In this document: piece after piece, positions 20,054 through 25,360 of the stretch | How positions within the stretch are numbered: position 1 is the first letter of the stretch | Layout of the letters: every line of letters begins with the position of its first letter | Assembly (NCBI RefSeq): GCF_007751715.1 | Contig: NZ_CP036292.1 | Span: 930,001 to 994,000 of the forward strand | Direction: 5' to 3' | Source of the DNA: Rosistilla oblonga | GTDB lineage: Bacteria; Planctomycetota; Planctomycetia; Pirellulales; Pirellulaceae | Length of the DNA stretch: 64,000 bases | Program-made: the position numbers and the translations under genes | The notes under the pieces: generated by a model | Told to the model about the DNA's origin: nothing | Database searches by the model: none | What the model saw: the letters and a program-made list of their open reading frames with translations, nothing else

Positions 20054-21529
20054 ATGCGAGCCCGATTTGAAGGGGATTTGTTCGTGTCGCAGTTGATTTT
20101 GCTTGCCAGTTCCGTCCAGCAGCTCGACCGCTGTCTGCCTCTGTTGGCTCATTTTGGTTCCACCCCGGCGTCGACGGTCACGATCTGGGTGATCGCTGAA
20201 GCGAAGAGTTCCCTGGCGGCCTACGCGAATCGCTGCAGCGAGCAACTGTCGGTCGAGAGTCGCGTGCAGTGCGTAACAGAAAACGAGACGGAGCTGCTGC
20301 ATCGGTTGTCGCAGTGCCGCCATGTCGATTGGTTTGTGATGCCCTACGCGGGGGAACAGCAAGCGTTTTTCAGCAACCTGTTCGAACGTTCTCCCTGCCG
20401 CACGATGCTGTTGGATCCGGGAGCGGAGTTTTCGGGGGAGGTCGGCCGGATCGTCGAACTGCTCAACGACGAATCGGATTCGATCGGCCGGATCTGTCGA
20501 GCCAATCCCAAGATGGCCGAACGCAAGCTGGCGTTCGACGCTCCCGATGAACTGACCGCCGCCGACAGCGCCCGTCGCCGCGAGCTGTTGGTCGATCGTT
20601 TGGCCGAACTTCAGTTGCAATCGAACGATCTTGTCGTCACGGCGGTCCAACGGACTACCAAGCCAAACGGTGATCTCGCGATCGCGCGTCAATTGTTGGA
20701 TCTCGATATTCCCGCGACGGTTGTGATCCTTCGCCATCGGATGGGCTGGGTGGAGCATACTTGGTCGTCGATCGAGAAGAAGATCTTCGAATGGTCGCCG
20801 CCGATGGAGCGGGAGGCGCGGATGGAGCTGGCCGAAAACCTAGCCGACAATTCGTCGCTGCAGTTCGAATTTGTGGCGATGATGTGCGCCGCGACTTGTC
20901 TGGCTGCCTTTGGATTGGTGCAGAATTCTGCCGCGGTGATCATCGGGGCGATGCTGGTCGCACCGTTGATGACGCCGATCATGGGAGCCGGCCTCGCCTT
21001 GGCCTATGGCAACCGGCCGCTGTTTGGCCGCGCCGGGATGACGGTCGGCGTGGGCTTTCTGTGCGCATTGGCGACCAGTTTTTTGTTCGGGTTGTTGGTG
21101 CGGATGGTTCAAGGAGCCGAGGTGACGCCCGAGATGTGGGCTCGTAGCAATCCATCGATCCTCGACTTTCTCGTTGGCCTGGTTGGCGGTTCAGCAGCCG
21201 CTTACGCGCGGACGCGGTCGCACCTGTCGAGCGCCTTGGCCGGCGCAGCGATCGCCGCGGCGTTGGTCCCACCGGTTGCAACCGCCGGCTTGCAGTTGGC
21301 CTTCCTGCCGATCCCGACAACGCCCACGCGGTGTCTGCCCGTTACCGGCCCGCTGTTGTTATTCACCGCCAATGTGTTGACGATCATGGTCGGATCGTCC
21401 TTCATCTTGTGGCTCAGCGGCATCCGCGGCGACCATCGCTTTGGCAAGAAGCAGCGTTGGGCCAACCGCGCCCTGATGCTGCTGCTGATGCTCACCTCGC
21501 TAGTCCTGGTCGTGGTGGTGGAGCATTAG
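20054..21529 (+). CDS. DUF389 membrane protein with N-terminal UspA-like region
   Basis: The protein has about 491 residues. The C-terminal half carries the DUF389 signature: LQFEFVAMMCAATCLAAFGL, then NSAAVIIGAMLVAPLMTPIM and GAGLALAYGN, followed by several membrane helices (about six in total). The N-terminal 250 residues are soluble and alternate beta strands and helices in a universal-stress-like pattern (LILLASSVQQLDRCLPLL, VDWFVMPYA, DLVVTAVQRTT). Start uncertain: ATG 20054 is given, but a GTG at 20084 has a better AAGGGG upstream. The role of DUF389 is unknown. It is divergent from glyS and is followed immediately by REP-like repeats. Confidence 0.82.
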   Translation: MRARFEGDLFVSQLILLASSVQQLDRCLPLLAHFGSTPASTVTIWVIAEAKSSLAAYANRCSEQLSVESRVQCVTENETELLHRLSQCRHVDWFVMPYAGEQQAFFSNLFERSPCRTMLLDPGAEFSGEVGRIVELLNDESDSIGRICRANPKMAERKLAFDAPDELTAADSARRRELLVDRLAELQLQSNDLVVTAVQRTTKPNGDLAIARQLLDLDIPATVVILRHRMGWVEHTWSSIEKKIFEWSPPMEREARMELAENLADNSSLQFEFVAMMCAATCLAAFGLVQNSAAVIIGAMLVAPLMTPIMGAGLALAYGNRPLFGRAGMTVGVGFLCALATSFLFGLLVRMVQGAEVTPEMWARSNPSILDFLVGLVGGSAAAYARTRSHLSSALAGAAIAAALVPPVATAGLQLAFLPIPTTPTRCLPVTGPLLLFTANVLTIMVGSSFILWLSGIRGDHRFGKKQRWANRALMLLLMLTSLVLVVVVEH

Positions 21530-21619
21530 CGCTGGAGTCGAGCCTTCAGGCGAAACGGCACGAGTCGAAGTTGGTGTCGAGCCTTCAGGCGACCGCGCTG
21601 GAGTCGAGCCTTTAGGCGA
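21530..21619 (+). repeat. cluster of three REP-like hairpin repeats downstream of the RAYT gene
   Basis: Copies lie at 21530-21553, about 21570-21592 and 21596-21619, all in one orientation. Each has the core ctggagtcgag (one copy ttggtgtcgag) running into a small hairpin, gccttcaggc or gcctttaggc, and ends in ga. The first copy begins one base after the DUF389 stop codon. They flank the 3' end of the RAYT gene, whose stop is at 21632. Confidence 0.85.
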
Positions 21620-21631
21620 AGAACCCAGCAT

Positions 21632-22261
21632 CTATAACTCCGGCGGATCCCAGCCTTTCCCAAAATCGTAGGGCGGATACGCTTGCCATCTCTTCAGCGC
21701 CAGATCTCGTCCGATCGCCTGCAAGTATTCCACTGCATTGCAATACGGCCATTCGATCCACTGCGTCACGTAGCCGTGCCGGACGGCATTGTTAAGTACG
21801 TAGTTCCAGGTTGCATAGAAGTGCCCTTCGGACTTCATCGCTGTCTCCGCCGCATTGCACCACACTTGCCGACCGCGACAATCTTCCACACGGTTCCAGA
21901 GGTATGAGCTGCGACCGTGCAATTGCACGAGCTTCTTCAGCAGGCCTTTCACCGACGGCGTATCGACGAGCGAGTGATAATGATTGGGGAGGATCGTCCA
22001 CGCATAAACGTGAGAGCATTGTGTGCCCAGCAGATCCACAAGCTCCTGTTCGAACGCGCTCATTCGCTGCGATGCATACCCAATGAACGGCCGATGCTCA
22101 AAACACGCTGCGGTGATCAGGTAGCAGGACGTCGTGTCGCTTTCGATATGAGGTGGGCTATGAGGGGGCCGGCCATACCTCCGTCGCTCGGCCAAAACCT
22201 CACGTTGCTGTTCGGGCGACATCTTACGCCACCGATACATCGTCTCTGGATTTGTGGGCAT
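21632..22261 (-). CDS. REP-associated tyrosine transposase (RAYT, IS200/Y1 HUH family)
   Basis: RAYTs are single-copy, IS200-related HUH nucleases thought to mobilise or process REP palindromes. This protein (about 209 residues from ATG 22261; ATG 22240 is also possible) has the metal-binding HUH motif LPNHYHSLVD near 93-97. Its nucleophilic Tyr is probably in WNYVLNNAVRHGYV near residue 154, followed by the typical W-P-Y-C and W-Q-A-Y-P C-terminal motifs. An upstream helix (MSPEQQREVLAERRR) is common in RAYTs. The open frame continues upstream through a 27-bp repeat array to 22447, adding ADRAGVEAL repeats that are probably not the native N-terminus. It is flanked by its presumed repeats on both sides and by no terminal inverted repeats of an IS. 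Confidence 0.88.
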   Translation of the reverse strand: MPTNPETMYRWRKMSPEQQREVLAERRRYGRPPHSPPHIESDTTSCYLITAACFEHRPFIGYASQRMSAFEQELVDLLGTQCSHVYAWTILPNHYHSLVDTPSVKGLLKKLVQLHGRSSYLWNRVEDCRGRQVWCNAAETAMKSEGHFYATWNYVLNNAVRHGYVTQWIEWPYCNAVEYLQAIGRDLALKRWQAYPPYDFGKGWDPPEL

Positions 22262-22286
22262 CGCACAGGGCTCCAGTGGCTTGTGG

Positions 22287-22394
22287 TCGCCTAAAGGCTC
22301 GACTCCAGCGCGGTCGGCTAAAGCCTCGACTCCAGCGCGGTCGGCTAAAGCCTCGACTCCAGCGCGGTCGGCTAAAGCCTTGACTCCAGCGCGG
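22287..22394 (-). repeat. four tandem 27-bp REP-like units upstream of the RAYT gene
   Basis: Units at 22287-22313, 22314-22340, 22341-22367 and 22368-22394 are nearly identical. Three have the stem ggctaaagcc and the first has gcctaaaggc, each followed by tcgactccagcgcgg. Because 27 is divisible by three and contains no stop in the RAYT frame, the array is open in phase with the gene. There are no spacers, so it is not a CRISPR. Confidence 0.9.
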
Positions 22395-22508
22395 CCGCCG
22401 GTGGTTCGGGGGAACTCTGATTCTAACATGTCGCTTTCTGGAAACACGCAAGGAATCTGAAAGAACCGCCGATTGGGCGGCGTATGCCTTGGTGCTCGGG
22501 TGGGGAGG

Positions 22509-22573
22509 TCGCCTAAAGGCTCGACTCCAGCGCTGGAGTCGAGCCTTCAGGCGAAAACGTTGGAGTCAGGCGA
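22509..22573. repeat. 46-bp head-to-head REP palindrome plus truncated copy
   Basis: Two repeat units face each other across a central cg: left arm 22509-22530, right arm 22533-22554, with one mismatch between arms (gcctaaaggc on the left, gccttcaggc on the right). A shortened copy, ttggagtcaggcga, follows at about 22560-22573. The block sits 9 bp from the haloperoxidase stop and could act as its terminator-like hairpin. Confidence 0.85.
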
Positions 22574-22581
22574 CCGCGTGC

Positions 22582-24429
22582 TCAACCGTCCAATGGACGC
22601 AGCATCGTTGCAGCGGCTTGCGTGCCGATTGCGCGGCCGGTGTCGAGGCCGGCGGTGTTGTCGAAGTCGAAGTGGATGCCGCCGTAGATTCGGCTCAGCC
22701 CCGCTTCTTCGGCTGCTTCGGAAAAGCTGTCGAAGGTCCGCGTGACGATAAGGTTCGGATCCAGCGGCCGCTGCTGCGGCGATGCAAACGCGTCGGTTTG
22801 GCTGGTGAAGCTGACGTTGTCGCCCAACAGTGCTGTCAGCACCGCGTCGGCGGCTCCGGAGAAGGTGCTGTGTCCGGAGGTGTACGTCGGGAAAGGCGGA
22901 CTGGTCAGCAGCGGTCGCCAGGCGTCGTCCTGATCGGTCGCTGGATTGCCATCTTCATCGGCTCGCTGGATCGCATCGATCGGCCGCCACAGATCGTAAT
23001 GGAACTTGGTGTCCCAGGCGGCGATCCCCGCATCGGCCATCGCGAGGTTCAGCAAGGCCAGCGTGCGGGCGGTTTCGATTAACGGTTGCTGTTGCCCGAC
23101 CATGACGTCGGCGGCGATCTGATTCCAGTGACCCGGCGGCGTAAACGTTCCGCCGCCATCGGACCAGAAGGTCGCGATCTCGGTCTGGTCCGCGGTGCGA
23201 TCGACGCTGTCGACACCGCCCAGTCGCATGACTTCGTCGACCGATGCGGCATAGATGTCGCTGGCAAGCGCTGGCGGTTCCGCAGGACGAAAGGTTGTGA
23301 CATCGTCGACGACAAACGGCTCGACATCGATCCATTGAGGCAGCAGCGGAGGCAAGTGGTCAGGCTCGGTCCGCTGCCAATCTCCAGGAGCATCGCCGTG
23401 AGTGTAAGTTTGCGTTGCCAGCGAGCCATCGTCGTCCCGAAGGGCAAGCATTTGCAGGCCGACCGATTCGCCAAAGCCGAGTCCAGCCGATTTGTCGGGA
23501 CCATCGGCGATCATCGCCAGCGATTCGTTCCGCGCCGCATTCCAGATCGCCATCGAATCGGCGTCGGGATAAAGTGCCGTCGAAACGGTGTAGGCTGCCT
23601 CGATCGCTGCGGCTTCGGCGGATGCTCCGGCGGCAGGAACGCCGGCGATCGGAAGGTAGGTTTCGTAGCCTCCTTCGATCGTGGCGATCGCATCGAACAT
23701 CGCCGTCTGGATCATCGCCAGATTGCGGGCGACGCGCGGCGGTTCGGACGTGACGATACGCCCTTCGTAAGGATCGTCGCTTGTCGTCGTCCATTCGCGG
23801 ATAACGTTCAGCGCCGCCGCGTTCCAGTTGACTGCGACATCGCCGCAGCGAATCTGCCGCGTCGTGGTCGTCGATTGCCCTAGCGGATCGGTGACCGTGA
23901 ATTGCAGATCGTGCATCCCCGGCGAAAGGACCGTCGTCAATTCGAAGGTTCCCGAGTCACCGTCGACTTGCGATGTTTGTAGCACCTGCCCTGCGTCGTC
24001 GGCCATTTCGACGCGTGTTCCGGGAGCCGATTGGCCAACCAGTTTCACCGTCTCGCTGAGGATGACACCATTGCCGTCGGGGTCCGAAGTCGATGCCATG
24101 CCGACAGCCAGCGTCGGTTGTTCGCGATAGCGATACTGGGCGTTGAGGATTCGCAGCGCGTCGATTGGCGTCGCCAGACGATCGCCGTTGGTATCGAAGT
24201 AGTTTGCTCCCGACGGACGCGCGCTGGGCAGTTGATGATCGGGAGTTTGATTCAGCCGATCGAGAAGAGCCGCCACGTCGGCATCGGTGACTAATCCGCT
24301 GCCATCGACGTCCAGTGGCAACGCCGGATTCTGCCACGCGGAATCCATGCAGAACCGAGGTTCCAAAGGCTGAAGCGATAGCGGTCGCCGTGTTTTACGG
24401 CGTCGTTTTGGCTGGGGGTTAATGGTCAT
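22582..24429 (-). CDS. secreted vanadium-dependent haloperoxidase-like protein with dockerin repeats
   Basis: This 615-residue protein combines a planctomycete export/anchoring leader (LSLQPLEPRFCMDSA, LEPR-type) with two dockerin-like Ca-binding repeats (DVDGSGLVTDADVAALLDRL and FDTNGDRLATPIDALRIL, about 40-100), an Ig-like stretch, and a vanadate haloperoxidase/PAP2 domain from about 210. The vanadate-pocket residues are visible: Lys and Arg in KFHYDLWRP (about 473-480), the SGH of YTSGHSTFSG (about 520), and Arg with axial His in RIYGGIHFDFDN (about 580-585). Family members oxidise halides with peroxide, though some act as acid phosphatases. ATG 24429 is preferred because the longer frame begins inside repeat DNA. 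It is flanked on both sides by REP-like elements. Confidence 0.88.
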   Translation of the reverse strand: MTINPQPKRRRKTRRPLSLQPLEPRFCMDSAWQNPALPLDVDGSGLVTDADVAALLDRLNQTPDHQLPSARPSGANYFDTNGDRLATPIDALRILNAQYRYREQPTLAVGMASTSDPDGNGVILSETVKLVGQSAPGTRVEMADDAGQVLQTSQVDGDSGTFELTTVLSPGMHDLQFTVTDPLGQSTTTTRQIRCGDVAVNWNAAALNVIREWTTTSDDPYEGRIVTSEPPRVARNLAMIQTAMFDAIATIEGGYETYLPIAGVPAAGASAEAAAIEAAYTVSTALYPDADSMAIWNAARNESLAMIADGPDKSAGLGFGESVGLQMLALRDDDGSLATQTYTHGDAPGDWQRTEPDHLPPLLPQWIDVEPFVVDDVTTFRPAEPPALASDIYAASVDEVMRLGGVDSVDRTADQTEIATFWSDGGGTFTPPGHWNQIAADVMVGQQQPLIETARTLALLNLAMADAGIAAWDTKFHYDLWRPIDAIQRADEDGNPATDQDDAWRPLLTSPPFPTYTSGHSTFSGAADAVLTALLGDNVSFTSQTDAFASPQQRPLDPNLIVTRTFDSFSEAAEEAGLSRIYGGIHFDFDNTAGLDTGRAIGTQAAATMLRPLDG

Positions 24430-24437
24430 CGTATGTT

Positions 24438-24510
24438 TCGGCTGAAGCCTCGACTCCAACGATTTCGGCTGAAGCCTCGACTCCAGCGCTGGTGTCGAGG
24501 CTTCAGCCGA
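24438..24510. repeat. three REP-like repeats including a 46-bp palindrome
   Basis: Copies at 24438-24461 and 24465-24488 (minus orientation) and 24487-24510 (plus orientation). The last two form a head-to-head palindrome around a central cg, with one mismatch. All three use the stem ggcttcagcc (ggctgaagcc on the other strand), the flipped version of the gccttcaggc stem beside the RAYT gene. They fill the gap between the ExeA-like gene and the haloperoxidase start. Confidence 0.85.
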
Positions 24511-24532
24511 TTGGCCTCGCCCGGATTCACTT

Positions 24533-25360
24533 TTAGGCGGGGATCGAGACGAGTTCGTTGTAGACGCCTTCGATGTGGTGCGCGTCGACTTGCGATTGGT
24601 CTTCGGCGTAGGCGACCATCAAACCGAGATCGCACAGGCGGTTGATCCGGCGCGGAATGCCGGAACTGCGGAGCTGAATCGCTTCGAGGGCTGCCAGCGT
24701 GAAGATCTTGTCGATCTCGGCACCAACAGCGGCTAAGCGATGTTGGATGTATCCCGCGGTCTGTTCCATCGACAACCGTTGCAGCACGCATTTGACCGAC
24801 ACGCGTCCGTCCAAAGCGCGGTTGCGTTCGATCGTGCTGATCAACGTCGGGTGACCAACCAGAATCAAGGTCCACGCCGATTCGGAGCCTTCGGCGCCGG
24901 CGTTGATGTTGAGCAGCAGCCGCAGTGTTTCAAGTTGTTGTGAATCGCTGAGCAGATGAGCTTCGTCGACGATCAGAACCGCATGTTTTCCGGCGGCGAC
25001 GTTGTTGTTCAGGAAAGTTTGAATCCGCCCCAACGCGCCGCGCATCGATTCGTTATCGTCGCCGGTGCTGCCGGTCCATTGGTCGGCGATGTAGGAGAGC
25101 AGTTGTTCGCCCGGCAGCGACGGGAAGACGACTTGAGCCACGGGGCCAAAATCGTCCGAAAGTTGGCGGGCGAAGCTGTCCAGTAGGATCGTCTTGCCCA
25201 TCCCACTCTCGCCGCACAGGACCGCCGCGCTGCGGCGATTTTCGACGCCGTATCGCAGTTTCAGCAGCGCCGTCTGGTGGACTTCCGAAGGATAATAGAA
25301 CTGTTCGTTCGACCAGTTTTCAAACGGGCGTTCGGTCAGATTCCAGTGGCTTTTATACAT
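24533..25360 (-). CDS. ExeA/GspA-type AAA ATPase
   Basis: This 275-residue protein opens with the family start YKSHWNLTERPFENW and FYYPSEVHQTAL. It has Walker A GESGMGKT at about 49-56 and Walker B LIVDEAHLLSD near 128-138. A sensor-like Arg region, RRINRLCDLGLMVAYAE, is typical of ExeA and of the ATPases linked to exosortase/EPS clusters. It is the last gene of a three-gene minus-strand cluster with a CpsD-like protein and a Pro/Gln-rich membrane protein. By analogy it may energise assembly of an envelope or polysaccharide export machine; the ExeA assignment is firm, the role is inference. No peptidoglycan-binding domain is attached, unlike Aeromonas ExeA. Confidence 0.86.
   Translation of the reverse strand: MYKSHWNLTERPFENWSNEQFYYPSEVHQTALLKLRYGVENRRSAAVLCGESGMGKTILLDSFARQLSDDFGPVAQVVFPSLPGEQLLSYIADQWTGSTGDDNESMRGALGRIQTFLNNNVAAGKHAVLIVDEAHLLSDSQQLETLRLLLNINAGAEGSESAWTLILVGHPTLISTIERNRALDGRVSVKCVLQRLSMEQTAGYIQHRLAAVGAEIDKIFTLAALEAIQLRSSGIPRRINRLCDLGLMVAYAEDQSQVDAHHIEGVYNELVSIPA

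Follow-up and report, generated by a model that had tools for sequence, protein, structure and literature searches.

A probable REPtron with GGAG-type guides in Rosistilla oblonga

Does a tyrosine transposase recognise the short hairpin repeats lying around its gene, or do the two merely share a locus? The question is raised by a part of the Rosistilla oblonga genome (one contig, 7.25 Mb), where a gene of the REP-associated tyrosine transposase (RAYT) kind sits among copies of a repeat resembling repetitive extragenic palindromes (REPs). The stretch analysed, G000:C1:930001-994000, comprises 64,000 nucleotides and is called the window below. Judging by sequence comparison, the locus is very probably a REPtron, that is, a RAYT recognising hairpin repeats both round its own gene and genome-wide, since the geometry of the repeat unit (guide tetranucleotide, two bases, stem, TTYA loop) travels with a clade of related RAYTs across phyla.

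The gene and its repeats

The gene and its catalytic positions are as follows (residues in the numbering of P0001, the protein of the long frame).

21632..22261, minus strand: coding sequence of the RAYT (TnpAREP-like), from the open reading frame, family profile, relatives' alignment and predicted fold
21974..21985, minus strand: codons of the HUH motif, N155-H-Y-H158, from translation and alignment
21800..21802, minus strand: codon for Tyr216, probably the catalytic residue, which does not vary in alignments of 16 and of 56 relatives

The long frame spans 21632-22447 on the minus strand and is open up to a GTG at 22447. The start codon is probably the ATG at 22261, because the first 61 codons of the long frame contain the four-unit repeat array in frame and because conservation sets in at MPxDPxxMYRW. 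The first-pass annotation had located the HUH motif in LPNHYHS and the likely tyrosine in WNYVLNN, and the translation has both there; the landmarks are NHYH at 155-158, W196, Y216 and N220. With an HUH motif and one catalytic Tyr in a Y1 fold, the product is assigned by these comparisons to the single-domain HUH/Y1 proteins of the RAYT (TnpAREP) kind.

The family model of REP-associated tyrosine transposases, NF047646, matches the protein at E=3.8e-17 and 62.5 bits, under its curated cut-off of 80; this E. coli-type model covers the window RAYT clade incompletely. Pfam Y1_Tnp gives E=0.13. The structure 4er8 is matched at E=0.11 from the single sequence and at E=1.5e-8 from a profile of 16 relatives, and it is also the best Foldseek match of the AlphaFold2 model (mean pLDDT 86.5, pTM 0.81), with a modest TM of 0.43/0.53, followed by the IS608 and ISDra2 transposases. 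From the class 2 motif Y---NP the protein keeps N at +4, while P is replaced by A; P is present in most relatives displayed. The gene had been described as single, which holds in that it is the sole match of its own clade in the source genome, although ten weaker Y1-transposase matches lie elsewhere. One copy per genome, with flanking repeats that are also dispersed genome-wide, is the pattern of a RAYT. One of the other Y1-transposase matches (L016, G000:C1:5934306-5937524) is flanked by seven copies of a different repeat, TGGGGCTTGCGCC, and is perhaps a second REPtron of this genome.

The repeat consensus in the window is CTGGAGTCGA-GNC-TTYA-GNC-GA, with 12 copies between 21532 and 24510.

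21532..21553, plus strand: REP copy 1 of the downstream cluster, GGAG, from pattern search
21571..21592, plus strand: REP copy 2 of the downstream cluster, GGTG, from pattern search
21598..21619, plus strand: REP copy 3 of the downstream cluster, GGAG, from pattern search
22287..22389, minus strand: tandem array of four 27-bp REP units that stops 25 bp ahead of the RAYT start codon
22509..22554: two head-to-head REP copies (22509-22530 minus, 22533-22554 plus) forming a 46-bp near-perfect palindrome
24438..24510: three REP copies past the haloperoxidase gene (24438-24459 minus, 24465-24486 minus, 24489-24510 plus, the last with GGTG)

This is the arrangement that had been read by eye: three downstream copies, a four-unit upstream array, a palindrome and three copies past the haloperoxidase. 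Each unit consists of a guide GGAG (GGTG in 2 of 12), T plus one base, and a short stem in which a C-G pair closes the TTYA loop; the lower two stem positions are G.A and A.G. The guide GT[AG]G at the hairpin foot of canonical REPs is thus absent. The repeat had been taken for a different sequence, which is right in so far as it is not GTAG, but GGAG is a variant of the GTAG guide rather than an unrelated sequence. No Rfam family reached its cut-off in a search of the window repeats (one match, on the palindrome, was far below threshold), and a known RNA family was rejected as their identity.

The genome-wide scan that the first-pass annotation had proposed found 114 copies at up to two mismatches, and none for the reversed pattern. 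The cluster and density figures refer to 100 copies listed in each genome (100 of the 114 here). In the source genome these form 48 clusters, 28 of them multi-copy; inverted pairs with outward guides, as in REPINs, occur as a plus-minus doublet in 12 of the 28, and tandem neighbours are as frequent. The expected density peak at the RAYT is found in this genome, where its region is the densest 3 kb (12 copies; 8 in the next separate cluster), but its counterpart in the sister genome, G072, ranks second, with 8 copies per 3 kb against 9 elsewhere.

Linkage and covariation across the clade

Among 199 genomes of the family, with up to 12 candidates scored per genome, 27 match P0001 at E<=1e-10, most of them once; several of the weakest matches (28-32% identity) resemble other Y1 groups. 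We added 80 named loci, kept from at least 287 relatives found, and the clade loci total 104. The most similar named records among the relatives listed are from Pirellula, Stieleria, Roseiconus and other planctomycetes, and some genomes outside the family hold several clade members (for example, four matches in G342).

The letters of the repeats around these relatives differ; the architecture, G-T-N5-C-TTYA-G, is common to them. It occurs within 1 kb at 99 of the 104 clade loci, and on both sides at 85, compared with one or two copies at 6 of 44 control loci of other Y1 transposases (clade loci were scanned within 1 kb, control loci whole). The clade flanks hold 467 motif copies versus 1.35 on average after dinucleotide shuffling (20 shuffles). 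Because a TTYA loop and two stem pairs were preconditions of the motif searches, these features count as evidence only from a k-mer scan, made without that demand. The stem pairs +3/+14 and +2/+15, which the search did not demand, are standard in 73 and 76 of 88 consensus repeats, the maxima in 1000 shuffles being 59 and 68. The pairing proposed from one locus is supported well beyond it, by this linkage as well as by the covariation described below. A clade RAYT beside unrelated repeats, named beforehand as a counter-case, was not seen as such; five of the 104 loci miss the strict motif, two with an A-TTYA-T closing pair (L032, L086) and three with other spacing or stem (L110, L134, L120). 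The idea of a planctomycete partner survives as regards partnership but was too narrow, as architecture and clade also go together in records whose titles name Verrucomicrobia, Lentisphaerae, Acidobacteria and other groups; a planctomycete-only repeat was therefore rejected.

Several other Y1 loci carry their own, different repeats: in family genomes, L060 (G006), L054 (G184), L067 and L068 lie amid 12-15 copies of distinct short repeats each.

We then considered whether repeat and protein change together, using 88 non-redundant RAYTs with a consensus repeat (six broken or partial genes, seven near-duplicates and three loci without a strict motif were dropped from the 104). The guides are GGAG (40), GTAG (17), GGTG (13), AGAG (11), GTTG (4), TGAG (2) and GGGG (1). 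For five of the nine repeat positions tested, the best covarying residue falls within a 13-residue span near W196.

21830..21868, minus strand: putative guide-reading loop, residues 194-206

These residues are T202 (for position -5), E201 (-3), C197 (-2), Q194 (+1) and S206 (+4); the best ones elsewhere are F132 (-4), Y260 (+2), S97 (+3) and R247 (+5). At -3, E201 goes with G in 59 of 59 pairs, and D201 with T in 21 and G in 8 of 29. At +1, Q194 accompanies C (21), A (19) or G (1), and K194 accompanies T (34), C (3), G (2) or A (1). At -2, H, F or Y197 always occurs with A (55/55), while C197 occurs with A (15), T (16) or G (1); at -5, T202 has T in 29 of 29. In the profile alignment C197, E201, T202 and K205 correspond to E. 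coli Q95, E100, H101 and R104. W94, Q95, E100, H101 and R104 are named in connection with the guide in the text available from PMC6006769, and Q95, D100 and R104 among the contacts in that from PMC8266576. The guide bases thus covary with residues 194, 201 and 202, beside a loop whose E. coli counterparts touch GTAG.

Covariation could also be produced by shared ancestry rather than by a recognition code, since close RAYTs have both repeat and residues in common. We therefore let letters evolve at matching rates along a tree built without residues 190-208 (300 runs, best residue in each). The uncorrected p-values of the nine tests were 0.0033 (-5), 0.19 (-4), 0.013 (-3), 0.31 (-2), 0.0033 (+1), 0.41 (+2), 0.047 (+3), 0.043 (+4) and 0.037 (+5). 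The signals at -2 and -4 lie within this null, as ancestry would have it, but those at -5, +1 and -3 do not, six of the eight base changes at -3 share their branch with a change of residue 201, and the top residues coincide with known E. coli guide contacts. We consider ancestry a rather doubtful explanation of the covariation as a whole.

For a hold-out set, 392 planctomycete genomes gave 17 loci besides that of the window; one was a training sequence, seven had no strict motif and nine were scored. The -3 rule was right in 7 of 9, with G predicted correctly from E in 3/3 and T from D in 4/6; the two loci that missed share 39% and 32% identity with the training set. Hence, on these sequences, the pairing of -3 with 201 is the solid part of the rule and that of +1 with 194 the weaker one. 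Two distant relatives at 32-39% identity, L271 (G545) and L267 (G553), have GGAG-type motifs despite D at 201, and the rule for 201 may fail outside the clade.

Would the loop beside the conserved Trp (194, 197, 201, 202, 206) then be a readable code that sets the guide region base by base, the repeat families having switched guide several times (GTAG, GGAG, GGTG, GTTG, AGAG) through matched single-residue changes? Several results weigh against it: +3 and +5 have their best residues outside the loop, those for -4, -2 and +2 are not significant in the tree-aware test of the 88 pairs, the nine tests carry no correction for multiplicity, and the +1 rule (K194 to T) was right in only four of seven hold-out loci. 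In our judgement the code has an even chance of being real. If so, the switches may also have shifted the target, as the guide has a part in selecting the cut site in IS608 and, according to PMC8266576, in Marinomonas Mb; a by-eye look at the clade repeats made out no cut-site dinucleotide switching along with the guide. The natural guide variants of this one clade offer ready-made matched pairs of RAYT and repeat, and a single-residue prediction: E201D should shift the guide base at position 2 (-3) from G to T.

Repeats in genomes without the RAYT

If the repeats depend on the RAYT, genomes lacking the gene should lack them as well. An exact-match count of TGGWGTNNNGNCTTYAGNC gives at least seven copies in each of the 20 family genomes that carry a clade RAYT of the TGG-guide type, including five where the gene is broken (G098, G161, G163, G195) or a fragment (G037). 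Where a clade RAYT accompanies GTAG-type repeats, in three genomes, the TGG pattern occurs 0, 1 and 0 times. The expectation holds for 159 of the 179 family genomes without a TGG-guide RAYT, which have at most five copies, but fails for the other 20, which have 16-305, no fewer than RAYT-bearing genomes. The overall association is strong (Fisher p=9e-17).

The exceptions could suggest that the repeats are terminators, RNA hairpins or recombination sites, a family of their own that happens to lie around the RAYT, as could the scatter of repeats over many places in the genome. The linkage figures for clade and control loci, the excess over shuffled flanks, the covariation of repeat bases with RAYT residues and the lack of any Rfam family at its cut-off all argue otherwise, and we find this reading very improbable. 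A profile scan of the 20 repeat-rich genomes and of four with 3-5 copies returned distant Y1 proteins only (best E=1.3e-10). Completeness is below 90% in seven of the 20, and four consist of a single contig (G006, G028, G137, G178). We also rejected the possibility that their repeats are served by another Y1 transposase encoded nearby, as none of 30 such loci (L050-L079) holds TGGWGT.

In several clade loci (L024, L025, L036, L040/L048, L045, L047) the RAYT gene has stops, frameshifts or is a fragment, and the repeats are kept. From these sequences it looks as if RAYT loss were frequent, with broken genes beside surviving repeats.

One such loss may be traced in the closest relative found, G006, where the consensus of the window recurs in 53 exact copies but a clade RAYT is lacking. 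DUF389 protein identity to the window is 99% for G006 and 89% for the RAYT-bearing G072.

21526..24532, no strand: repeat-bordered island with the RAYT and haloperoxidase genes, without alignment at this place in G006
22582..24459: haloperoxidase gene inside the island (domains VCPO_N and PAP2; the N-terminal part resembles a dockerin)

About 43 kb separate the DUF389 and AAA genes in G006, where their orientation to each other has also changed; in G072 RAYT and haloperoxidase stand at the same place as in the window. The simplest reading of these alignments is that island loss and a rearrangement at the repeats went together in G006; the alternative is a gain in the source genome and G072.

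Gene and flanking repeats might also be an ordinary IS200-like insertion sequence moving as a unit, given repeats on both sides and a fold close to the IS608 and ISDra2 transposases. This was rejected as extremely improbable: the source genome and G072 have one clade match each, at the same place, without the near-identical within-genome copies typical of IS200/IS605; single matches prevail in the 27 genomes, repeats without a gene number in the hundreds, and the haloperoxidase is likewise repeat-bordered.

A different possibility is that a role in regulation or genome architecture keeps the RAYT in place, through binding to repeats beside its own gene and others or through recombination at repeats, repeat spread being a minor side effect. 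The array ending 25 bp ahead of the RAYT start is in line with this, as is the median distance of 43 bp from the clade RAYT start to the nearest upstream motif (90 loci). Furthermore, 19 of 48 alignment ends between the source genome and G006 are within 30 nt of a repeat versus 2.4% expected, but the tie between breaks and repeats is only suggestive because the regions were chosen for containing repeats, and differences in array size are part of the count. Genomes with hundreds of copies must at some time have amplified them, and clade RAYTs are often broken or absent. We regard this possibility as rather unlikely.

Against recognition and spread of the repeats by the RAYT one should set the following. 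Half of the repeat-rich family genomes (20/40) have no clade RAYT; these are no poorer in repeats (median 51.5 copies without RAYT, 35 with), and four of them are closed. The G006 alignment stops at 21525 and resumes at 24533, exactly at the repeat-bordered edges of the island, and the RAYT is absent. Nine closely aligned repeat sites of the source genome and G006 have repeats in both, with no new insertion, and none offers an empty site in G006 for a whole repeat pair. Copy number differs at two of the nine, 2 versus 3 and 8 versus 1 exact plus two degenerate; the latter is the array G000:C1:589567-589907, with eight pattern copies, and its match at G006:C1:676320.

In the REPtron reading the mechanism would be as follows. 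An IS200/IS605-derived HUH-tyrosine protein would recognise the hairpin repeats as single-stranded DNA, its loop 194-206 would read the guide, and its tyrosine would cut near it, as in the REPtrons of E. coli, Stenotrophomonas and Marinomonas. Tandem arrays, inverted pairs and the copies scattered over the genome may have arisen by cutting and rejoining, and the repeats would outlive the loss of the RAYT for long as passive elements. Repeat families in enzyme-less genomes bear on why bacteria keep such repeats.

Comparison with known systems

RAYTs are described as single-copy and vertically inherited (PMC8049555), and the choice of REP by a RAYT has been worked out for three biochemical models, all with GTAG guides, as far as the available text of PMC8266576 goes. 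In the portions of the REPtron literature covered, figures and supplements of PMC3733652 aside, we did not find GGAG-type guides or the window RAYT clade described; PMC2817692 does not mention Planctomyce, Verrucomicrobia or GGAG. The comparisons below refer to the available portions of the papers cited.

The GTAG repeats of R. baltica and O. terrae (PMC3733652) are likewise REP families of Planctomycetes and Verrucomicrobia, and R. baltica has many tyrosine transposases; by the text description their ends are GTAG or GTGG, and overlap with the window family is possible. Class 3 (PMC6006769) is also found in Planctomycetes and Acidobacteria with atypical high-copy repeats, but is defined by NHVH, W[TA], Y...EQ and a CnGA foot, whereas the window clade has NHYH, W[CHFY] and Y...N; membership was rejected on the motifs NHVH, W[TA] and YV..EQ. 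Subclass 2.8 (PMC6006769) shares NHYH, a similar length and a proline-rich N-terminus, and differs in W[YH], YIHYNP, long GT[AG]G REPs and occurrence in Cyanobacteria; compared by description only, the clade agrees in NHYH, partly in the other motifs and not in the guide.

E. coli TnpAREP (subclass 2.2, 4ER8) is the nearest solved structure by profile and fold, and shares with the window clade the Trp and a Glu/Asp at the E100 position. Its guide tolerates no change of GTAG and its stem needs a bulge (PMC8266576), while here guides vary and stems are short. Marinomonas Mb (group 3/subclass 2.5 REPtrons; PMC8266576), for which the guide was shown to choose the cut site, shares the guide tetranucleotide, the two bases, a five-bp stem, a four-base loop and HUH plus one Tyr. 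It differs in having GTAG where the window clade mostly has GGAG or GGTG, DH[LF]H in the Mb group instead of NHYH, and Q after the W instead of C, H, F or Y. On these comparisons the window system is a putative RAYT/REP pair with a non-GTAG guide and most of the hallmarks of a REPtron, which would extend REPtrons with such guides over several phyla.

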